Shown here in pieces: positions 16,321 through 29,945 of a stretch of DNA of 41,992 nt (position 1 is the first letter of the stretch; each line of letters opens with the position of its first letter). The notes under the pieces were generated by a model, which had not been told where the DNA came from, ran no database searches, and worked only from the letters and a program-made list of their open reading frames with translations. This DNA comes from Eubacteriales bacterium (lineage in GTDB: Bacteria; Bacillota; Clostridia; Lachnospirales; Lachnospiraceae): contig JAUNGB010000045.1 in the NCBI GenBank assembly GCA_030524715.1, forward strand, positions 1 to 41,992, written 5' to 3'. Position numbers and translations under genes: made by a program.

Positions 16321-16406
16321 TACATAACCCAAAATGTCAGTTGTTTTTTTTAAATGTATCATGTAATATTTATTCATATGAAGGATGTCAGGAGGGGGTA
16401 GGGGAT

Positions 16407-18818
16407 ATGAATGACGTAGAAATGGTTTTGGCGAGAAGTCTGAATGATGCAGCCCACTATCATTCAGAAGTAGAAATTTTGTTTGTCGTCAGCGGCTCGG
16501 CAAAGGTTACCGTAAAGAATCAGTCTTATGAACTGGATCAGGAAGATATCATTGCAGTTAATTCAGGTGAGATGCACAGTGTAGAATCGTCAATGAATGC
16601 TGTGATCTGTGACGTGCATTTTTCATGCAGAAGGATATTGGAATTAGTAGAAGAGGATATGTGCGTGTTCGAATGCAATAGCAAAACGGACAGAAATCGT
16701 TCCTATCATACAATTCGTACAGTTATGCGTGAAGCGGTATATCAGTATATTAAGCGGGAACCGGGGAAAACAGATTGCCTGAAAATCAGTGTCCTATATA
16801 AGCTGCTTGACTGCCTGATTGAAAATTACCGGAATCAGTCTCTGACAAGGATATCGGGACGAAAGATGGATGACAGTGAAAGAGTTCAGAAAATATATCA
16901 ATATGTCGAACAAAATTATCAATACGGAATAAGTATGTCGGAATTAGCGGAACAGCTTTTTTTGTCTACATCAACGCTATCGCGGGTGTTTAAGAAGGAA
17001 ACCGGCATTTATTTTGCAGATTATGTTTCGGGGATTCGTATGAGTCATGCAGTGGATGAGCTTCTTCAAACAGAAAAAAGCATTACAACGATTGCGGTGG
17101 ATTGCGGTTTCTCAAATCCATCTGTGTTTAATAGAAGTTTTAAAGATGTTTATGGAGTAACTCCTTCTGTTTTTCGCGCGCAGAGAAAAGAGCAGATGAT
17201 GGAGCAGGAAAAACAGACGCTTTTGGAGCGGGAAAAGCTCAGAAAAGAACTGGCGGAGCAATTAGGAGAGCAAAGTATCAATATCGAAGGGAGGGTAAAG
17301 GTATCTGTTAATGCGGATCAGGGACGTGCTTTTGTGAACTGCTGGAAAGATATGATGAATATTGGCTCCGTGGATATGCTGTGCGGCGCTGCGGCACAGA
17401 AACAGGTATTATTTTTAAAAAGTGAATTGGGATTTCATTATGCCCGTATATGGAGCATCTTTTCGCAGAAAAATATGATCTGTACCGGAAAAGAAGGAAG
17501 CAATTATAATTTTAATCGTTTAGATTACGTTCTGGATTTTTTACTGGAGAATAATATGATTCCATTTCTGGATTTTGGTAATCGGCCGGATGTTGCAAAC
17601 GGCGAGTTAGGGAACAATGTTTTTGAAACACATGACTATATTTTGTTTGAGAGCCGTGCCGCATGGGAGGAAGGTCTGTCAAATTTAACAGAACATATTG
17701 TGCGAAAATACGGGAGAGCGGAAGTAAGCAGATGGAAATTTGAATTCTCAAGTGATCGGAGCAACGTGCCCGTCAGCAATTATTATTCAGATCAGAATTA
17801 CAGTTACGCAGAGGCCTTTTTGTATGCATGGAGAACAATAAAAAAATTGGCTCCGGGAGCAATGGTAGGAGGACCGATGGCGTTAATAGATTTTGATGAG
17901 CAGTTTGTGAAAGAGTTTTTGGTTTTCTGCAGAGAACAACAGTGCATTCCTGATTTTGTTTCCATGGCTGTATTTCCTTACAGGACTCGAAAGGTGGAGG
18001 GACGTGCGGTAAGTGAACTTGCGGTTGCGGATAATGTGGAGATGGAATATATTTACCAGATGCAGCAGGTTTTGTTGGATACAGGGTGTACAAATTGTAA
18101 ACTGTATGTTACCGAATGGAATAATTCTGTTTCCAACCGAAATTATCTGAATGACAGTAACTTTCGCGGAGCCTATTTTATTCAAAAACTTGCAGAACTT
18201 TCGGAATCGGTGGATATGTTAGGCATTTGGATGGCAACGGATATTATCGGCAACTATGTGGATTCGAATCGTATTGCAAATGGCGGCGGCGGGCTGCTGA
18301 CACAGGACGGGATACCCAAACCCGCATTTCATGCCTTACGTTTTATGAATAAATTAGGCGATTGCCTGATCTCTAAAGGAGAAAATTTTATTATTACCAG
18401 TAAAAGTAAAACAAGCTATTATATTATCTGTTACAATCTTAAGGGCTATAACCGTGATTATTTTAAGAAGAGGGAGCGTTTGGACAATCCGGAGGATATT
18501 GAAGAAATTTTTGAGAATAAAGATCCGGTGGAGATATCGATCAGTCTGAACAATCTTCCGGATAATAAGAGTTTCATCATTACGAGACGTCATGTGGCCG
18601 CCAATTACGGAAATCTGCTTGGGGAATGGAAAAATTTTCAGTATGACAAACATCTGTCTGCAGACAGCGAAAAGTATATTCGGGAAGCAAGTTTTCCACG
18701 TATGAGTATGGAAAGGATGAAGACAGAGGAAGGGAGCCTTCATATGTCGGTTACGCTGCAGGCACATGAATTTGTTTTACTTCATATACATGAGGATAAG
18801 CAAGCAGCTAGTACATAA
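16407..18818 (+). CDS. AraC-type transcription regulator fused to a GH39-like domain
   Basis: Fusion protein of 803 residues; ATG 16407 follows GGAGGGGGTAGGGG. Residues about 1-100 form a cupin-like sensor (HYHSEVEILFVVSG, VNSGEMHSVES). About 165-265 is a double helix-turn-helix AraC domain (ISMSELAEQLFLSTSTLSRVFKKE and ITTIAVDCGFSNPSVFNRSFK). About 300-770 resembles glycoside hydrolase family 39. The nucleophile motif VTEWN is present (E570), but the acid/base motif, normally WNEPN, reads WKFEFSSDRSN with D450 where Glu is expected. Catalysis is therefore doubtful and ligand sensing more likely. It sits between the two CGD transcription units, whose promoters share a 36-bp element, so it is the probable activator. 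No signal peptide; cytoplasmic. Confidence 0.85.
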   Translation: MNDVEMVLARSLNDAAHYHSEVEILFVVSGSAKVTVKNQSYELDQEDIIAVNSGEMHSVESSMNAVICDVHFSCRRILELVEEDMCVFECNSKTDRNRSYHTIRTVMREAVYQYIKREPGKTDCLKISVLYKLLDCLIENYRNQSLTRISGRKMDDSERVQKIYQYVEQNYQYGISMSELAEQLFLSTSTLSRVFKKETGIYFADYVSGIRMSHAVDELLQTEKSITTIAVDCGFSNPSVFNRSFKDVYGVTPSVFRAQRKEQMMEQEKQTLLEREKLRKELAEQLGEQSINIEGRVKVSVNADQGRAFVNCWKDMMNIGSVDMLCGAAAQKQVLFLKSELGFHYARIWSIFSQKNMICTGKEGSNYNFNRLDYVLDFLLENNMIPFLDFGNRPDVANGELGNNVFETHDYILFESRAAWEEGLSNLTEHIVRKYGRAEVSRWKFEFSSDRSNVPVSNYYSDQNYSYAEAFLYAWRTIKKLAPGAMVGGPMALIDFDEQFVKEFLVFCREQQCIPDFVSMAVFPYRTRKVEGRAVSELAVADNVEMEYIYQMQQVLLDTGCTNCKLYVTEWNNSVSNRNYLNDSNFRGAYFIQKLAELSESVDMLGIWMATDIIGNYVDSNRIANGGGGLLTQDGIPKPAFHALRFMNKLGDCLISKGENFIITSKSKTSYYIICYNLKGYNRDYFKKRERLDNPEDIEEIFENKDPVEISISLNNLPDNKSFIITRRHVAANYGNLLGEWKNFQYDKHLSADSEKYIREASFPRMSMERMKTEEGSLHMSVTLQAHEFVLLHIHEDKQAAST

Positions 18819-18997: not shown

Positions 18998-19061
18998 GAT
19001 ATCAAATATATGGAGATGCATTTGTTCTGCGTGATGCATTACGAATATGAGGAGGTATCAT

Positions 19062-19964
19062 ATGTATCAGTATAATCGGAAAGGTCCGAAACGAGGCGTG
19101 GCTCTTTATAGTTATTCCGGGGAATATGGGGTATCTATGGATCTGGAAAATTGTTTTCAGGACATGTATGACATGGGAGCGCACGGTTTAGAGATTTTGG
19201 CAAATACGCACATTCCGGCTTACCCGCAAGTAGACGAAAACTGGTTGGAAGAATGGTTTCATTTATTGGAGAAATATGAGATTGTTCCGGTAGAGTATGG
19301 GCATTGGATCGACAGCCGTTTGTTTGCAGGCCGTGAACTGACTACAGAAGAATCTATAGAAATATTAAAGAGAGACATTAGGATTGCCCATAAGCTGGGC
19401 TTTACGGTCATGCGTACCAAAATGGGTGTAATTGATTCTGTGAATTCCCCGGTGAATAATTGGAGAGAAATCATTCGGGGCGCTTTGGAATGTGCGGAAG
19501 AAAATAATGTGCGTATGTGTCCGGAACTGCATATGCCGACGGCTTTAAAAAGCCGTTATGTGGATGATTATATGGAATTTATTTTAAAAGAGAATACGAA
19601 ATATTTTGGTTTCAATGTGGATTTTGGAACATTCCAGGATGTGTTTGAGAGCGATTACCGTTTGCCGGGAATGCCAGAGGACGGAGGACCGTGTTCCAGA
19701 CCGGAAGATATGATTCCTATTCTTCCTTATGTGTATTGTTGCCATGCAAAATTTAATCATATGAGTGAGGATTTTAAAGAAACAACAATTCCTTATGAAA
19801 AGATTATTCAAATCCTGAAGGATCAGAATTGGGACGGATATATGCTCAGCGAATATGAGGGACCGGATAAGAATAAGGTTGGATTTGTAGGAGATCAGTT
19901 GAGACGCCAGCATATTATGATGCAGCACCTCTTGAATGATCAGGAAGGGAGAATAATATGTTAG
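19062..19964 (+). CDS. C-glycoside deglycosidase alpha subunit 2 (TIM barrel)
   Basis: Protein of 300 residues; ATG 19062 follows GAGGAGGTATC, and the ATG at 19047 overlaps that site. It belongs to the same TIM-barrel group as alpha 1. Candidate metal ligands are E155/H157 (CPELHMP), D187 (FNVDFGTF), H228 (CCHAKFNHM) and E264 (LSEYEG). It is followed by, and overlaps, a DUF6379 beta subunit, so a second alpha/beta deglycosidase is encoded. It differs markedly from alpha 1 (shorter, different loops around the site), which suggests another substrate or the opposite step. Controlled from its own promoter carrying the cluster's shared element. Confidence 0.8.
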   Translation: MYQYNRKGPKRGVALYSYSGEYGVSMDLENCFQDMYDMGAHGLEILANTHIPAYPQVDENWLEEWFHLLEKYEIVPVEYGHWIDSRLFAGRELTTEESIEILKRDIRIAHKLGFTVMRTKMGVIDSVNSPVNNWREIIRGALECAEENNVRMCPELHMPTALKSRYVDDYMEFILKENTKYFGFNVDFGTFQDVFESDYRLPGMPEDGGPCSRPEDMIPILPYVYCCHAKFNHMSEDFKETTIPYEKIIQILKDQNWDGYMLSEYEGPDKNKVGFVGDQLRRQHIMMQHLLNDQEGRIIC

Positions 19965-20404
19965 AAGCAGATATGATTCAGACCAGGGGATTTCATAATA
20001 TTCTGGAAAATGGGAAAATTGTAGGCTTTCAATTTTGTATACGCCTGACTTATTATCGTGGAATATTCTTGTCACAGCTCCGTCCACAGAAGGTTGTAGT
20101 AGATGGAGGAATTTTCCCGAAAGAATTGGTGACATGGAATATAAAAGGAATAGATTTCACAGTTGATGAAATGGTAAATAATGCAGAAATTCAATGGTGT
20201 TCTACAGAAACAGCAACGCTGAAGATTTATAAACCGGGAGGATTAACCCAGGGTTATCATGAGATCAGCACGGGATATAAGTATTCGTCTTCCTATATGC
20301 CGCCGGAACTGCAGAAAAGTATCGACAGCGAGGAAACGGATCCGTTTTTAGAGATGATGTTTGGGCAATTGCACAGCACACGCAAATTATTATTAGTCTG
20401 GTAG
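19958..20404 (+). CDS. C-glycoside deglycosidase beta subunit 2 (DUF6379), extended
   Basis: Protein of 148 residues whose start overlaps the alpha 2 stop by 7 nt, implying translational coupling and complex formation. The family pattern is clear: GFHNILENGKIVGFQF, IRLTYYRGIFLSQLRPQKV, DFTVDEMVNNAEIQW and YKPGGLTQGYHEI. After the usual final strand region (YKYSSSYMPPE) it carries a distinct tail of about 25 residues (SIDSEETDPFLEMMFGQLHSTRKLLLVW) that beta 1 lacks. The tail could alter substrate access or oligomer state. A terminator follows. Confidence 0.82.
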   Translation: MLEADMIQTRGFHNILENGKIVGFQFCIRLTYYRGIFLSQLRPQKVVVDGGIFPKELVTWNIKGIDFTVDEMVNNAEIQWCSTETATLKIYKPGGLTQGYHEISTGYKYSSSYMPPELQKSIDSEETDPFLEMMFGQLHSTRKLLLVW

Positions 20405-20521: not shown

Positions 20522-21037
20522 ATGCCTAAGACAAAATTTCAATCAGTCATTTTTACAGCGGTTACCGCATGGATCATGGTGTACATCATGACACTGTACA
20601 ATACGGTACTGGCAACGGGGAGCTTCACGAACGCGACCTTTCTGATCGCGCTGAAGGGAATGTGGATCGAGTATATCATCATTTTCCTGTGTGCGTTCTT
20701 TATCTCAAGCCACGTTGCGAAATACTTTGCGTTTCGCGTGGTAAAGCCCGGAGACCGGCAGATTGCTATTATTTTGGCAATTCAGATTTTTACGGTGGTA
20801 TCACAGGTGGCGCTGGCAAGCATTCTGGGAGTATATCACGGATATGGGTTTACCAGCCAGTTTATTCCCAATTATCTTGTTACATACTGCCAGAACTTTA
20901 TTATGGCAATGCCTGTGCAGCTATTCATTGCAGGACCGATTGCAAGGGCGCTGTTCCGGCTGCTGTTCGCCGGAAAAAACGAATCGGAAGAAAAGAAAAT
21001 GGAAAAGGAACTGCTGAAGGAAGGGATTGCAGAGTAG
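20522..21037 (+). CDS. DUF2798 four-helix membrane protein
   Basis: Protein of 171 residues with about four hydrophobic segments (near 10-30, 45-65, 80-105 and 125-150) and a charged, lysine/glutamate-rich C-terminus. It matches the DUF2798 pattern MPKTKFQSVIFTAVTAWIMVYIMTLYN. Function unknown. It occupies the place where atpI normally precedes the ATP synthase genes and is 10 nt from the atpB start, so it is probably cotranscribed and might assist c-ring assembly (speculation). A paralog is encoded on the minus strand at 40503-40961 beside a truncated GPH transporter, so association with glycoside transport genes is an alternative link. Confidence 0.8.
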   Translation: MPKTKFQSVIFTAVTAWIMVYIMTLYNTVLATGSFTNATFLIALKGMWIEYIIIFLCAFFISSHVAKYFAFRVVKPGDRQIAIILAIQIFTVVSQVALASILGVYHGYGFTSQFIPNYLVTYCQNFIMAMPVQLFIAGPIARALFRLLFAGKNESEEKKMEKELLKEGIAE

Positions 21038-21047
21038 GAGGCGGATG

Positions 21048-21884
21048 ATGAGAAAGAAGAAGATTTCCATCGGTGTATGGATATGCGTCATACTGCTTTT
21101 GCTGGTTGGAATTATCCTGACTAACCACACGGATGGAAAGCATGAAACAATCAAGGAAGTCATGCGGGACGCTGTATTGCATGAGTCGGGGAAAATCAAC
21201 TTTTTTGGAATCAAAGAGGTAAACCCGGCTTTTATATCAGCGGTTACGGTCACGGTTGTTCTGTTGATCGTGGCGGCATGCATCCGAATTTTTGTGATTC
21301 CAAAGTTCCAATATGTTCCGGGAAGATTTCAGTTATTGCTGGAGCAGTGGGTAGGATTGTTTGACAATCTGGCAAAGTCCAACAGTCCTCACCGGAACGG
21401 ATTTTTAGGAGCTTATGTTTTCGGGGCAGGTTCTTATATTTTCGTTGGGACATTGTTTGAACTGTTTGGCTTACAGGGAGTTACAACAGAAGGGACTTCA
21501 ATCGCACTTCCGGCTCCACTGTCAGATATTAACGCGGCAATCGCAATGGGCTGCCTGTCGTATGTGATTATTCTTTCCGGCGGTATTGCCGGAAACGGGC
21601 TGCGCGGCGTGGGAAGCACTCTGAAGGATTTCTCGCTGCCGATCTCCATGAGCTTCCGTTTGTTCGGCGCATTGCTCAGCGGCCTTCTGGTGACAGAGTT
21701 GGTTTATTATTATATTCATTTGAGCTTTGTGCTTCCTGTGGTTGTGGGAGTACTGTTCACCCTGTTACATGCATTGATCCAGACTTATGTGCTGACAATG
21801 CTGACAGCGCTGTTCTATGGAGAAGTATCGGAGCCGCACAAAAAAGTAAAAAAAGAGAAAATAAAAAAACAGGCGCTTGCCTGA
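21048..21884 (+). CDS. atpB: F-type ATP synthase subunit a
   Basis: Membrane stator subunit of 278 residues. The start is ATG 21048 (6 nt after AGGAGG); 21045 is an alternative. It has an N-terminal membrane segment and a long periplasm-facing stretch. The conserved channel region contains SMSFRLFGALLSG with the essential arginine at R204, and the family Asn after RLFG is replaced by Ala. LLHALIQTYVLTMLTALF near the end is the usual last helix. Together with the c ring it forms the ion path. It lies between the DUF2798 gene and atpE and overlaps neither. Confidence 0.88.
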   Translation: MRKKKISIGVWICVILLLLVGIILTNHTDGKHETIKEVMRDAVLHESGKINFFGIKEVNPAFISAVTVTVVLLIVAACIRIFVIPKFQYVPGRFQLLLEQWVGLFDNLAKSNSPHRNGFLGAYVFGAGSYIFVGTLFELFGLQGVTTEGTSIALPAPLSDINAAIAMGCLSYVIILSGGIAGNGLRGVGSTLKDFSLPISMSFRLFGALLSGLLVTELVYYYIHLSFVLPVVVGVLFTLLHALIQTYVLTMLTALFYGEVSEPHKKVKKEKIKKQALA

Positions 21885-21903
21885 AAAACGGAGGTTATTG
21901 AAA

Positions 21904-22302
21904 ATGAAAACAATGATGAAAACTATGATGAAGAAAATGCCGGTATTTTTAATGTTGCTGATGATGGTGTTCAGTCTTTCAGCTCCTGCGTATGCTGCGG
22001 GAGAAGCAGATACAGCTACAAATGCAGTTGTGGCAGAGACAGAAGATTCTGATGTCGAGGCTATATCTGACGCTGATCCCACCGGGGATAAGGCGTGGGC
22101 TGCGGCTCTTGCTATCGGTTTGGCAGCCGCGGCAGGCGCAATCGGTATGGGAATTGCTATTGCAAAATCAGTAGAGGGGATTTCACGCCAGCCGGAAGCA
22201 GAAGGGAAAATCCGAACCAGTCTGATGCTTGGACTTGTATTTGTGGAAACGGCTATTATTTATGCGCTGATTGTTGCAATCCTGATTATCTTTGTATTGT
22301 AA
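21904..22302 (+). CDS. atpE: F-type ATP synthase subunit c with signal-like N-terminal extension
   Basis: Predicted product of 132 residues, versus 70-90 for a normal c subunit. The last ~72 residues are the c hairpin: first helix WAAALAIGLAAAAGAIGMGIAIAKS, loop RQP (95-97), second helix with the ion-binding Glu E115 in FVETAIIYAL. The first ~62 residues look like a signal peptide (MMKKMPVFLMLLMMVFSLSAPAYA) plus an acidic segment, so the c subunit may be inserted as a precursor. The Gln of Na+-specific c rings in helix 1 is replaced by Met, although Thr follows the Glu. Ion specificity is therefore unclear, with H+ slightly favoured. ATG 21904 follows GGAGG. Confidence 0.87.
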   Translation: MKTMMKTMMKKMPVFLMLLMMVFSLSAPAYAAGEADTATNAVVAETEDSDVEAISDADPTGDKAWAAALAIGLAAAAGAIGMGIAIAKSVEGISRQPEAEGKIRTSLMLGLVFVETAIIYALIVAILIIFVL

Positions 22303-22317
22303 AGGCAGGTGAGCATA

Positions 22318-22818
22318 GTGAATATTCCTTTAAACATTGACTGGCAGCAGATTTTGCTCCATCTGTTCAACTTTGCTATATTAGCGGCGGGCCTGTACCT
22401 GCTGCTTTATAAGCCTGTAAAGGACTTTATGGATAAGAGGCTTGATTATTATCAGCATATGTCCCAACAGGCGCAGGAAAGCCTTGAAAAAGCGGCTCAG
22501 AAAGAACGGGCATGGGATGTAAGGATGGCTGCGGCTGATGAAGAAATACAGAAAAAAGAAGAAAATGCACGAAAAGAGCTTTCCCGGGAAACAGACCAGA
22601 TGAAAGCGCAGACGCAAACGCAGTGTGAAAGGCTGATCGCGCAGGCAAAGGAAAATGCGGAGCGGGAAAGAGAGAAGATTCTGTCAGAGACAAAGAAAGA
22701 AGCGGCTGAATTTGCCATTCAGGCAGTAGAAAAGCTGCTTGGTTCCACCGCTGAAAAATCTCTGGATAATTTTTTAGAAACAGACGGGGAGTGTGAGCAT
22801 GAGCATGATGGAGCATGA
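22318..22818 (+). CDS. atpF: F-type ATP synthase subunit b
   Basis: Peripheral-stalk subunit of 166 residues with one N-terminal membrane helix ([23 protein letters not shown]) and a long charged coiled coil (about 40-150). GTG 22318 after GCAGGTGAGC is preferred; GTG 22309 would add three residues. The acidic, His-containing C-terminal tail (CEHEHDGA) runs into the overlapping atpA start. With no free delta subunit in the operon, b must contact the delta-like extension of alpha. Confidence 0.85.
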
Positions 22819-24595
22819 ACTGAAAAAAGTAAATATTCAGGCGTTTCTATGTAGCGCGGCTTCGCCGGGAGATGAGCAGCTTAATAAACTGCAGAAGCTC
22901 CTTGAGCATAAATATGGAGAAAGCGTTTCACTGTTATGGAAGGAAACGCCGGAAATCAAGAAAGGGTTCCGGTTGGAAGTGGGGACTTCGGTTTATCACT
23001 GGAATCTGGAAGAAATCTATGATCTGAGCCTGGAAGAATCGAAGCGCCAGTTGGAAAATGCTCTGCGTGAAGCGGTTACAAAGCAGGGAGACGTCATTCC
23101 TCTTATGCAGCAGACGGTAGAGACATGGATGCCAAAATCTGAATTTCAGGAAATCGGGATTGTCCTGTCCGTAGGCGACGGGATTGCCACAGTCAGCGGC
23201 TTACCCAGTGTAAAATATGGGGAAATCGTGCTTTTTGACGGCGGTATCCGGGGAATGGTACAAGAACTGAAAACAGAGTATGTTGGCTGTATTCTTTTTG
23301 GCGACGACCGGGAGATCACGGAAGGAAGCATAGTAAAGCCAACAGGAAAAACAGCGGGAATTCCTGCCGGAAACGAATTTATCGGCAGAGTTATTGATGC
23401 GCTTGGAACTCCAATTGACGGAAAGGGACAGATAAAAGCCGAGGCTTACCTTCCGGTTGAAAATCCGGCGCCCGGTATTATAGACCGTCAGCCGGTAAAT
23501 GCCCCCATGGAAACAGGATTGCTGGCCATCGACGCTATGTTTCCAATCGGCAGAGGACAGAGGGAACTGATCATCGGCGACAGGCAGACAGGAAAAACAG
23601 CGATCGCGCTGGATACCATTCTGAATCAGAGAGGCAAGGATGTGATATGCATTTATGTAGCCATCGGACAGAAGGCAAGCTCTGTGGCTCAGTTGGTGGA
23701 AACACTCCGGAAGCATGGCGCAATGGAGTATTCCATTGTCGTTGCCGCTACTGCCAGTGATACCGCCCCGCTTCAATACATTGCCCCCTACGCAGGCTGT
23801 GCGTTGGGAGAATACTTTATGAATCGGGGGCGTGACGTGCTGATTGTCTATGACGACCTGTCAAAACACGCCATTGCTTACAGGGCGCTTTCCCTTTTGC
23901 TGGAACGTTCGCCGGGGCGTGAGGCTTATCCGGGGGATGTATTTTACCTTCATTCCCGTCTGCTGGAACGTTCGGCTCACCTTTCAGAGGAAAAAGGCGG
24001 AGGAAGTATGACAGCTCTTCCCATTGTGGAGACGCAGGCAGGGGATGTATCGGCATATATTCCGACAAACATTATTTCCATCACGGATGGGCAGATTTTC
24101 CTGGAAAGCGATTTATTCTTCTCGGGGCAGCGCCCGGCAGTAAATGTGGGACTTTCCGTGTCCCGTGTAGGAGGCGACGCCCAGACCAGGGCGATGAAAA
24201 AAGCGGCGGGCGCAATCCGCCTGGAACTGGCTCAGTACCGGGAAATGGAAGTATTTACACAGTTTTCCAGTGATCTTGATGACGCCACAAAGCGGCAGCT
24301 TGTTTATGGACAGGGGCTGATGCAGATGCTCCGTCAGGAACAGTATCATCCGATGAAACAGCATGAACAGGTCATTATCTTAGTGGCAGCGCTGGAGCAT
24401 ATTATGCAGGATATTCCGGCAGGAGAAATCAAAAGATTTCAGCAGGAGCTGATTCAATATGTGGAAAAAGAAGGGGCTTCTCTTTGTCAGGAGATTGAAA
24501 ACACAGGGCAGCTTTCAGATGACCGGAAACAGGAAATCATAGTTTTATCAAAGGCATTTTTGGAACTATGGAATAAAAAGAAAGAAACGCGGTGA
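22799..24595 (+). CDS. atpA: ATP synthase subunit alpha with fused delta-like N-terminal domain
   Basis: Protein of 598 residues, about 90 longer than usual. From about residue 105 it is a normal alpha subunit ([20 protein letters not shown]-loop GDRQTGKT about 93 residues later than in E. coli alpha). The first ~90 residues align with the C-terminal half of subunit delta: [45 protein letters not shown] and a closing amphipathic helix. This matches E. coli delta from VVEVDVISASALSEQQL through MAGVIIRAGD. No separate atpH exists between b and alpha, its normal place. The b-binding half of delta is thus apparently joined covalently to alpha, replacing the alpha-delta contact. The start overlaps atpF. 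Confidence 0.88.
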
Positions 24596-24603
24596 TTGAT
24601 CAG

Positions 24604-27328
<2,725 letters not shown>

Positions 27329-27565: not shown

Positions 27566-29164
27566 TCAACGATTCAATAAATCCTTTAAATCTTCCTCCG
27601 GCGTGGTAATCGGAGCAATCCCGTAATTCTCCACAAGAAAGTTCAGAATATTCGGCGAAAGAAAAGCTGGCAGGGACGGGCCGAGGCGGATGTTCTTAAT
27701 GCCGAGATGCAGCAGGGTCAGCAGAATACATACTGCTTTTTGCTCATACCAGGAAAGCACAAAGGAAAGCGGAAGCTCGTTGACACTGCATCCAAAGGCT
27801 TCAGCAAGAGCAGAAGCTACCTGAATAGCGCTGTAGGCGTCATTGCATTGTCCCATGTCAAGGATTCGCGGAATCCCGTTGATTTCACCGAGGTCAAGGT
27901 CGTTAAAACGGTATTTGCCGCAGGCGAGGGTCAGAACAAGGCTGTCGGCTGGAGTCTGCTTTACAAATTCCGTATAATAGTTGCGCCCCGGTTTTGCACC
28001 GTCGCATCCGGCTACAAGGAAAAAGTGACGGATGGCTCCATCCTTCACGGCCTGGACGATTTGACCAGCGGCAGAAAGTATCGCACCGTGCCCGAACCCG
28101 GTGGTAACATTTGTGCCTCCGTTGATGCCGGAAAAGTGCATATCTTCCGGATATCCGCCAAGGGAGAGTGCCTTTTCGATAACCGGGGTGAAATCTTTGC
28201 GGTCATCAATATGCACCGTTCCGGGAAAAGATACCATCTCTGTGGTAAATACACGGTCCGCATAGCTTGCTTTCGGAGGCATCAGACAATTTGTAGTGAA
28301 GAGAACCGGCGCGGGGATATCGGCAAACTCTTTCTGCTGGTTCTGCCATGCGGTGCCGAAATTCCCTTTCAAATGAGGATACTTTTTCAGTTCCGGATAG
28401 GCATGGGCAGGAAGCATTTCTCCATGTGTATAAATGTTGATTCCTTTTCCACGGGTCTGCTCCAGAAGAAGCTGGAGATCCTTTAAGTCATGTCCGGTCA
28501 CAACGATAAACGGACCCTTTTCTACGGTAAGGGGTACACTGGTGGGAACAGGGATACCGTAGGTTTCTGTATTTGCCCGGTCAAGAAGTGCCATGCATTT
28601 CAGGTTGATCTCTCCGACTTTCAGTACAGTGGGAAGTAATGCGTCTGCCGTTTCCTCATATCCGATTTTGAACAGACCTTCGCAGAAGAACCGGTTCACT
28701 TCCGGATCGGAATATCCAAGCATAAGGGCGTGGCATGCGTAGGCAGCCATGCCGCGGAGCCCAAACAGGATCAGGGATTTCAGGGAACGGATATCCTCAT
28801 CTGCACTCCACAGGAGATCCATATCGTAGTCTTCGTTGCGTCCACAAGAAGAGCTGCAGCTATCACACATAGGCACAAGGGCAGTTTTTTCTCTGTGTGT
28901 CTTTTCAATCTGCCGGATGATTGATTCATCATCAAAGTTCACATTTGTGAGTGTGGTAAATAATCCTTCTATGATGGTGCGCCAGGTGTTGTCTGTGGGA
29001 GCGGTATTTCCTTCTGTTGCGCGGGCAAGGCCGATTAAGGCCCCGGTCAGTTGATCCTGCAATTTGGCTGTTTTTGCAGATTTTCCGCAGGCGCCGGAGT
29101 TTCCCACACAACCGGAACATGCTGCGGTCTGTTCGCACTGATAACAAAACATTTTATTTTCCAT
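27566..29164 (-). CDS. hcp: Hybrid cluster protein / hydroxylamine reductase
   Basis: Protein of 532 residues; ATG at 29164 is chosen because GGAGGAATACATTA precedes it. The N-terminal cysteines C7, C10, C19 and C26 (CYQCEQTAACSGC...C) bind the simple Fe-S cluster. Hybrid Fe-S-O cluster ligands lie in VVTGHDLKDL, FTTNCLMPP, VAGCDGAKPG and LACGKYRFND. Family members reduce hydroxylamine and nitric oxide and protect anaerobes from nitrosative stress. It is divergent from a Crp/Fnr regulator, and its promoter has the same box as asrA and the gene at 36152, so it is probably induced under NO, nitrite or sulfite stress. Confidence 0.93.
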   Translation of the reverse strand: MENKMFCYQCEQTAACSGCVGNSGACGKSAKTAKLQDQLTGALIGLARATEGNTAPTDNTWRTIIEGLFTTLTNVNFDDESIIRQIEKTHREKTALVPMCDSCSSSCGRNEDYDMDLLWSADEDIRSLKSLILFGLRGMAAYACHALMLGYSDPEVNRFFCEGLFKIGYEETADALLPTVLKVGEINLKCMALLDRANTETYGIPVPTSVPLTVEKGPFIVVTGHDLKDLQLLLEQTRGKGINIYTHGEMLPAHAYPELKKYPHLKGNFGTAWQNQQKEFADIPAPVLFTTNCLMPPKASYADRVFTTEMVSFPGTVHIDDRKDFTPVIEKALSLGGYPEDMHFSGINGGTNVTTGFGHGAILSAAGQIVQAVKDGAIRHFFLVAGCDGAKPGRNYYTEFVKQTPADSLVLTLACGKYRFNDLDLGEINGIPRILDMGQCNDAYSAIQVASALAEAFGCSVNELPLSFVLSWYEQKAVCILLTLLHLGIKNIRLGPSLPAFLSPNILNFLVENYGIAPITTPEEDLKDLLNR

Positions 29165-29210
29165 TAATGTATTCCTCCAATTTTTGTTTTCTTGTTTTCT
29201 TGGGTAAACT

Positions 29211-29251
29211 ATAGTACAATATCGAAAACAAGTATGTTTGATTTCAAACAA
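29211..29251 (-). promoter_or_regulatory. hcp promoter with Crp/Fnr-type palindrome
   Basis: TGTTTGA-TT-TCAAACA (29235-29250) is a perfect 7+7 palindrome. On the minus strand TGTACTAT supplies a -10 (TACTAT, 29216-29211), and no -35 is seen. Box-to-(-10) spacing is identical to that at asrA (33106) and 36066. The box centre lies about 39 bp before the expected start, a class II activator position. The palindrome also lies just before the regulator's own start, so autoregulation is likely. Confidence 0.75.
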
Positions 29252-29264
29252 ATGGGGTGCTTTT

Positions 29265-29945
29265 TTGAAAAAATATTTGTCCGTATTAAGAAGGTGTACA
29301 TTGTTTCAGGGACTGTCAGACAGCGAGATTTTGTCCTCACTGAACTGCATAGGTGCAGAAACAGAAACCAGGGAGAAGAATGAGTATATTCTGCGTGCAG
29401 GTGAGAAAACGGATTCCGTTGGGCTTTTATTGTCAGGAGGCGCGTTGATTATCCAGGAGGATTTATGGGGAAACCGGAATGTGATCACAAGGCTTGGACC
29501 GGGAGATTTTTTTGCAGAGTCCTTTGCGGCTATTCCGAATACTGTCCTCAGTGTCAGTGTGGTTGCGACAGAAACCAGTGAAACCATGAAAATGGATATC
29601 ACCCGTATGTTGACGGTGTGCTCCTCGGCGTGCAACTGCCATAACCAGCTGATTCATAATCTGGTAACAGCGCTGGCGGGGAAACTTCTGGTGTTCAATG
29701 ACAAGATTACGCATATGAGTAAACGAAAGACGCGGGATAAGCTGCTGTCTTATTTGTCTGCCGAATCCCTCCGGCAAAATTCTCTGTCCTTTGATATCCC
29801 CTTTGACCGGCAGCAACTGGCGGATTTTCTCTGTGTGGAGAGGGCGGCGATGTCCGTGGAATTATCGAAATTGCAAAAAGAGGGATTGTTAAAAACAGAC
29901 CACTCCCATTTTGAGTTAAATATAGAAGCGGTAAGTCAGAAATAG
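29265..29945 (+). CDS. Crp/Fnr-family transcription regulator (HcpR-like)
   Basis: Protein of about 226 residues. TTG 29265 is preferred because GGGGTG lies 5 nt upstream and a longer frame from TTG 29238 would overlap the palindromic operator. It has a cyclic-nucleotide-type sensor beta-barrel (NEYILRAGEKTDSVGLLLSGG, LGPGDFFAESFA), a dimer helix, and a C-terminal winged helix (DRQQLADFLCVERAAMSVELSKLQKEG). The N-terminal FNR four-Cys cluster is absent, but an unusual CSSACNCH cluster precedes the dimer helix. Its position next to hcp fits HcpR regulators that sense NO in other anaerobes. The shared box upstream of hcp, asrA and 36152 suggests its regulon. Confidence 0.82.
   Translation: MKKYLSVLRRCTLFQGLSDSEILSSLNCIGAETETREKNEYILRAGEKTDSVGLLLSGGALIIQEDLWGNRNVITRLGPGDFFAESFAAIPNTVLSVSVVATETSETMKMDITRMLTVCSSACNCHNQLIHNLVTALAGKLLVFNDKITHMSKRKTRDKLLSYLSAESLRQNSLSFDIPFDRQQLADFLCVERAAMSVELSKLQKEGLLKTDHSHFELNIEAVSQK

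Follow-up and report, generated by a model that had tools for sequence, protein, structure and literature searches.

An F-type ATP synthase operon of a Lachnospiraceae bacterium encodes an alpha subunit that begins with the C-terminal domain of delta. This anatomy is close to certain: profiles and predicted fold together give the fused domain, no delta N-domain, no delta gene in the operon and an otherwise complete set of F-ATPase parts. As to function, we consider the chances about evenly balanced that the enzyme assembles with several peripheral stalks, each with its own a subunit, and would thereby run at a raised ion/ATP ratio.

The operon and its alpha subunit

In the window (the whole 41,992-nt stretch that was analysed), the ORF list and the Pfam/TIGRFAM profiles give the order DUF2798 gene, a, c, b, alpha, gamma, beta, epsilon (Table 1). 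Alpha and beta are F-type by the curated cut-offs (484.45 bits for TIGR00962 and 462.85 for TIGR01039), and gamma, epsilon, a, b and c are all present, each scoring over its Pfam cut-off. The atpB ORF opens at TTG 21027, and AGGAGG precedes the ATG at 21045; the first of its two motifs marks what we take to be the position of the essential Arg. No free delta/OSCP gene was found in the operon, and the ORF list shows none between atpF and atpA, a slot that the sequence-only reading had already described as empty. Counted from ATG 22799 the alpha ORF has 598 residues; TIGR00962 covers residues 98–589 (counted from GTG 22793), and about 90 extra residues therefore lie ahead of the alpha body. The window c subunit (21877–22302) has E-T-x-x-x-Y in helix 2, and Gln is absent from its helix 1.

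Table 1. Features of the atp operon, in positions of the window
Feature	Position	Strand	Basis
DUF2798 membrane protein, first gene of operon	20522..21037	+	Pfam PF11391, 26.7 bits
atpB, subunit a	21045..21884	+	Pfam PF00119 1e-16; motifs SFRLFGALLSG, IQTYVLTML
atpE, subunit c, signal-peptide-like N-terminus and acidic tail ahead of helix 1	21904..22302	+	Pfam PF00137 1.7e-16; ORF from TTG 21877
atpF, subunit b, ordinary length, no delta fusion	22318..22818	+	Pfam PF00430 7e-16; ORF from GTG 22309
Fused delta-CTD-alpha subunit, 598 aa	22799..24595	+	ORF and Pfam/TIGRFAM profiles
Delta/OSCP C-terminal domain (stalk socket)	22835..23086	+	OSCP match 22832–22996, AF2 fold, Foldseek and VIA, delta-CTD profile 35.5 bits
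Retained alpha N-terminal helix	23096..23125	+	AF2 helix 100–109 (low confidence there); hydrophobic pattern kept in 5 groups compared
Canonical alpha body, P-loop GDRQTGKT at 23576–23599	23084..24559	+	TIGR00962 748.8 bits
atpG, gamma	24604..25512	+	Pfam PF00231 4.7e-88; ORF from GTG 24592
atpD, beta, catalytic	25509..26915	+	TIGR01039 796.1 bits
atpC, epsilon	26912..27328	+	Pfam PF02823 1.8e-17, PF00401 2.1e-11

By profile and fold, alpha residues ~13–96 are the delta/OSCP C-terminal domain (CTD). Taken singly, the Pfam OSCP match of the window sequence is borderline: the extra stretch aligns with model positions 102–157 of 172 and scores 24.1 bits alone and 19.5 bits in the full protein, against a cut-off of 22.3. 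The OSCP profile matches all 34 of 34 aligned members of the fused N-terminus. The AF2 model of the domain folds as beta-alpha-beta-beta-beta-alpha, which Foldseek and VIA match to delta/OSCP; the AF2 model of full-length alpha was poor (mean pLDDT 63.5) and was left out of the evidence. Searched against PDB sequences, a profile of the fused N-terminus, which includes the start of alpha, finds as its best match the engineered fusion 9jc1_I (E 9e-18). Together, the delta-CTD profile and the AF2 fold uphold the original claim that the C-terminal half of delta sits on the front of alpha.

Two classes of fusion

We read 89 fused loci, one per genome, of which 73 carry the C-domain only (CTD type, or short fusions) and 16 a complete delta (full fusions). 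L211 and L222 had counted as long from their length alone and were reclassed as CTD type on reading, and the profile of the delta N-domain (NTD) agrees. That profile has no match in the window or in any of the 73 CTD-type fusions and matches 16 of 16 full fusions, which bears out the proposal that alpha has the b-binding half of delta covalently joined to it and that the alpha-docking half is gone. The fused C-domain is under purifying selection (dN/dS 0.05–0.23 in 11 of 15 pairs, the other 4 not being computable) and, judged by the 0.03–0.11 of the alpha core, is less constrained than that core. The NTD of the full fusions is conserved as well (dN/dS 0.07–0.16, two of three pairs computable).

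In no operon of the 89 loci does delta have an ORF of its own. The full set a-c-b-alpha-gamma-beta-epsilon stands in this order in them, with few exceptions: L099 is without a at a contig end, a is split over two ORFs in L074, and gamma and beta share one ORF in L225 and L226. The fused operons carry a single a and a single b gene, as usual. Among the full fusions are those of Pseudobutyrivibrio xylanivorans, Pseudobutyrivibrio sp. MD2005 and an Agathobacter MAG, and one genome of the window's family (G249) also holds a full fusion. The N-terminal 205 residues of one full fusion match 473 proteins (E <= 1e-3); among the best 120 of these, two Pseudobutyrivibrio UniRef entries begin 'Multifunctional fusio'. 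Short fusions found with L090 as query include database entries named Lachnospiraceae bacterium.

The gamma-beta ORFs come from related genomes (L225, 6797–9157, and L226, 6815–9199, both on the plus strand) and have 786 and 794 aa, with gamma at 1–300 and beta from 313/335. Such a single ORF is odd, since gamma must rotate inside beta. An AAGGA-like stretch lies upstream of an internal ATG before beta in these loci, so beta may also start separately.

A second F-ATPase in many genomes

The window's genome (G000) also contains a complete canonical operon, a-c-b-delta-alpha-gamma-beta-epsilon, on contig C173. With this canonical operon and its free delta present, the window enzyme is therefore the second F-ATPase of the organism, and the statement of the sequence-only reading that there is no separate atpH holds for the window operon and fails for the genome. 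In G019, of the same genus, a canonical delta and a fused alpha lie on one contig, ~37 kb apart. The finding of both on a single contig argues against a sequencing or annotation artefact, an explanation that could draw on the draft state of the window's genome (210 contigs, 5.02% contamination); we rejected it because the architecture recurs in 89 loci, one per genome. The catalytic and ion-path subunits are complete, which argues against a decaying operon, and the chance that either artefact or decay explains the fusion is negligible.

A survey for the fusion, proposed when it was first noticed, found a fused alpha in 75 of 392 genomes sampled from the window's order (five-row profile, E <= 1e-5, match lying in an ORF of 570 aa or more), a lower bound, since that profile was made from sequences close to the window. 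A 34-row profile (E <= 1e-10) found fused alphas without an internal stop in 38 of 393 genomes in a survey of the class and in 16 of 398 in one of the phylum, 11 of these 16 being from outside the window's class; the order, class and phylum samples overlap. G099 was counted as fused, since its order-survey match reads through one stop and other searches give an open frame of 589; G899 and G620, with cut frames, were excluded.

The 75 genomes of the order survey and G019 make up 76 fused genomes. A free delta (PF00213, E <= 0.1) is present in 58 of them, namely G000 and 57 of the 75 others, and was not found in 18; G370 and G194, which were among the 78 genomes searched, have a free delta beside alpha. 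Each of the 18 has exactly one F-type alpha (E <= 1e-60), the fused one, and 16 of the 18 reach a completeness of 90% or more with contamination of no more than 5%. This indicates that the enzyme can do without a free delta. The sequence-only reading had seen the danger to its case in a free delta, encoded elsewhere, that assembles with the fused alpha: such a gene does exist in the genome, and its assembly with the fused alpha is unlikely, since there are fused genomes in which no free delta was found. The same counts bear on the idea that the free delta of the canonical operon serves both enzymes and that the fused CTD is vestigial. Free delta does accompany the fusion in most of these genomes, yet the 18 exceptions, the conservation of the fused CTD and the place of the G000 free delta in a complete operon of its own make this very improbable.

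Among 20 genomes tested for a V-type A subunit (E <= 1e-100), 16 gave a match, at 929–957 bits, just below the curated cut-off of the archaeal model, and none was found in G000, G019, G358 and G112. In G112 (short fusion) and G358 (full fusion) the fused F-ATPase is thus the sole rotary ATPase found. RnfC, part of an ion-pumping redox complex that would help to build an ion gradient, is present in 18 of the 20 genomes, including G000 and 16 of the 18 sole-fused ones. An operon of a third kind occurs on contig 51 of G391 (L149) and at L150 and L152–L165; its delta is free and has 167–181 aa, and its alpha and beta are closer to the fused type than to the canonical. G391 has three F-type operons, one canonical, one fused and one of this third kind.

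Evolutionary history

Trees were built on alpha-core and beta columns, with the fused domain left out. The 79-row tree contains 63 fused rows, with three free-delta rows as the outgroup; left out of it were 7 near-copies, the canonical rows, the rows of family f17 (L074–L077), L228–L234, L235 and rows from outside the class, and 13 of the 76 fused genomes were left out of the row set. The 58-row tree is a hand-picked part of a 144-row set. In the 79-row tree all fused rows form one clade (100/96; 997 of 1000 bootstraps), within which short and full fusions are interleaved: a single short-type clade is rejected (AU p 1.1e-4), as is a single long-type clade (p 6e-82). When no regain is allowed, the best tree has 8 losses of the N-domain (7–11 over 1000 bootstraps). 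Three well-supported groups mix the types, L096/L100 with L108/L125 (100/100), L117 with L083 (100/99) and L101 with L097/L098/L080 (100/99). There were therefore at least three N-domain losses, or else separate short fusions, and the figure of eight depends on the tree.

The 79-row tree suggests one fusion with later losses of the NTD. We do not maintain that reading, nor a full fusion in the ancestor of the window, because wider sampling (144 and 58 rows) puts free-delta rows inside the group; in both wider trees the window's clade branches outside free-delta rows. The number of fusions in the window's wider group thus depends on sampling, being one in the 79-row tree. Across the phylum, a tree that unites all fused rows is rejected (AU p 7e-47), which implies repeated fusion, or fission; the 58-row tree has five fused/free changes. 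In the 144- and 58-row trees, fused rows of genomes beyond the window's class branch apart from the window's group. The window's own clade has 25 rows, all short (SH-aLRT 100 in the 144-row tree).

The c subunits of these 25 rows are a second feature common to the clade: they have 106–148 aa (one ORF 194), with N-termini that by eye look like signal peptides and, also by eye, an acidic tail ahead of helix 1. Elsewhere c has 70–102 aa in other fused operons (one 128) and 68–98 aa in free-delta operons (one 165).

One stalk or several

The H+/ATP ratio of an ATP synthase is set by its c-ring. In the F-ATPases studied to date there is a single peripheral stalk and a single a subunit (PMC12229609). 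According to the available part of the same paper, the delta N-domain of the normal enzyme sits on the alpha3beta3 axis, contacts two alpha N-termini and holds the complex to one stalk, while the delta C-domain contacts the third alpha and b2 binds delta. In Bacillus PS3, Ueno et al. 2025 deleted the N-domain of delta and joined its C-domain to alpha (PMC12229609; PDB 9jc1); the engineered enzyme bears as many as three stalks with an a subunit on each, has an H+/ATP ratio of 5.8 versus 3.0, and makes ATP at lower pmf. The delta-CTD-alpha design itself is thus already in print. The same authors noted a natural delta-deltaN-alpha fusion in Acidaminococcus fermentans and UniProt G4Q3K6 and A0A1I2C5T3, which by their account awaits verification (PMC12229609, available part). 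The arrangement accordingly has both an engineered and a natural precedent.

Like the engineered PS3 FoF1, the window enzyme is without the N-domain, has the C-domain fused in frame to the alpha N-terminus and has no free delta in the operon. Unlike it, the window enzyme is natural, its epsilon C-terminal helix is present (PF00401) and its domain has an 8-residue insert. The Acidaminococcus fermentans fusion has the domain order and the missing N-domain in common with the window, a likeness drawn from the published description only. We propose that each of the three alphas would bear its own socket for a b2 peripheral stalk; the early remark on unusual stoichiometry is apt here, as three alphas mean three sockets. 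More than one stalk would then assemble, each bringing an ion-conducting a subunit. With the delta N-domain gone from the pseudo-threefold axis the one-stalk limit would be lifted, so that, by extension from PS3, two or three b2-a units could dock and ion/ATP would rise in proportion (PMC12229609, available part). Its probable use would be to make ATP, as a low-gear isoenzyme, when the proton- or sodium-motive force is too weak for the ordinary ATP synthase of the cell.

Three sockets per complex presuppose that all alphas carry the domain. An internal start or proteolysis could instead give one long and two short alphas, and hence one stalk. Of the 89 fused genes, 68 do have in-frame ATGs close to where alpha begins. 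Inner ATG/GTG codons with a Shine-Dalgarno match of at least 4 nt were found in 17 of 89 fused genes, however, against 2–29 of 89 when six stretches of the alpha core were taken as controls, and 9 of the 89 genes have no ATG, GTG or TTG in the stretch at all. Shine-Dalgarno matches precede 21 of 167 junction ATG/GTG codons (12.6%); over all codons of that stretch the figure is 648 of 4183 (15.5%). Junction start codons are thus no richer in them than chance, and an internal start as the general mechanism was rejected. Since inner starts that would yield alphas without delta show no enrichment, the socket is expected on every alpha, which would give three per complex. The test is insensitive, recognising 48 of the 89 N-terminal starts and, among unfused alphas, the starts of 36 of 55, and in the window AGGGAG lies 14 nt upstream of an ATG at 23105, outside the scored spacing of 4–12 nt, so a weak inner start is possible there. 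Overall, mixed alphas are improbable.

The main rival to several stalks is a single b2 stalk on one of the three CTDs, the other two being empty: a peptide bond replaces alpha-delta docking, and the N-domain becomes superfluous. The a and b genes are single and ordinary, covalent docking accounts for loss of the NTD without any gain of function, and the alpha N-helix is retained, all of which suit one stalk. Data on the engineered enzyme point both ways. On the cryo-EM grid, 0, 1, 2 and 3 stalks were seen on 15, 51, 26 and 8% of particles, low counts for which the authors suspect dissociation; SDS-PAGE and pmf titration, by contrast, gave about two stalks on average (PMC12229609, available part). 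As most particles thus had no stalk or one, the fusion permits, and may not force, multiple stalks. Against one stalk also stands the purifying selection on the NTD in the full fusions (two pairs), which suggests that the NTD is not simply idle once fused. These relatives would have three complete deltas per F1, with a conserved NTD, so fusion alone is no signature of several stalks; moreover, an NTD that had simply become redundant once fused would be lost as well. The literature searched gave no stalk count for a natural fusion. We regard the single stalk as plausible, with clearly less than an even chance. A multi-stalk, low-gear enzyme is the likeliest function, at about even chances, and one stalk with two idle sockets fits the sequence data nearly as well.

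A broader proposal we make tentatively, with confidence a little short of even: ATP synthases that naturally carry several stalks and two or three a subunits may be widespread in Lachnospiraceae and other Firmicutes, may have evolved repeatedly by shedding of the NTD from alpha fusions, and may often be kept beside the normal enzyme as a switchable low gear for weak ion gradients. Should natural fusions indeed hold several stalks, changes in stalk number would be a way for gear ratio to evolve; and as 58 of the 76 fused genomes also have free delta, many genomes would possess two ATP synthases that differ in gear. The natural series of free delta, full delta-alpha and delta-CTD-alpha makes the role of the N-domain in setting stalk number testable outside engineered enzymes, and full fusions occur in named bacteria (P. 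xylanivorans).

Relation to other delta arrangements

The full delta-alpha fusion of Pseudobutyrivibrio and its relatives resembles the window in that delta fronts alpha and the operon has no delta gene, and differs in keeping the delta N-domain. In the mycobacterial b-delta fusion the full delta sits on b, with one copy per enzyme. There too delta is covalently joined to a partner (PDB 7jg5), whereas the window's delta domain is on alpha, with three copies expected; a b-delta fusion of that type was rejected for the window, where the b ORF ends at 22818 without a delta domain.

N-ATPases are described as having no delta subunit (PMC5706428, available part) and the gene order beta-epsilon-a-c-b-alpha-gamma (PMC5709465, available part). 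They share with the window an operon without delta, and their b tail weakly resembles the window CTD: positions 168–238 of TIGR03321 (N-ATPase b) match window residues 6–76 with E 0.0018, a likeness that would place the socket on b instead of alpha in N-ATPases. Membership of the window enzyme in that family was rejected, as its alpha scores 622.1 bits with TIGR03324 (cut-off 750.5), its b 38.6 with TIGR03321 (cut-off 224.7), and b has at most 169 aa.

A survey of rumen butyrivibrios reports complete ATP synthases in all 62 genomes, and the fusion goes unmentioned in its available part (PMC4478896). Among the matches listed in our literature search (titles and abstract openings, with subscription papers, preprints and supplements lying beyond it) there were no other reports of the fusion. 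Relative to the literature searched, as far as its text was available, the full-fusion class, the repeated loss of the N-domain, the pairing of canonical and fused operons and the spread in Lachnospiraceae are new.

Neighbouring genes

Upstream of the atp operon, at 19047–20404 of the window, a xylose-isomerase-like TIM barrel adjoins a C-glycoside deglycosidase beta subunit (PF19906), and the two are probably a C-glycoside deglycosidase pair. An AraC/GH39 protein is encoded beside this putative pair at 16341–18818. Directly 3' of the operon, at 27566–29945, a Prismane-family protein is encoded on the minus strand, probably a hydroxylamine reductase, and next to its gene, at 29238–29945, lies a divergent Crp/Fnr-like regulator.
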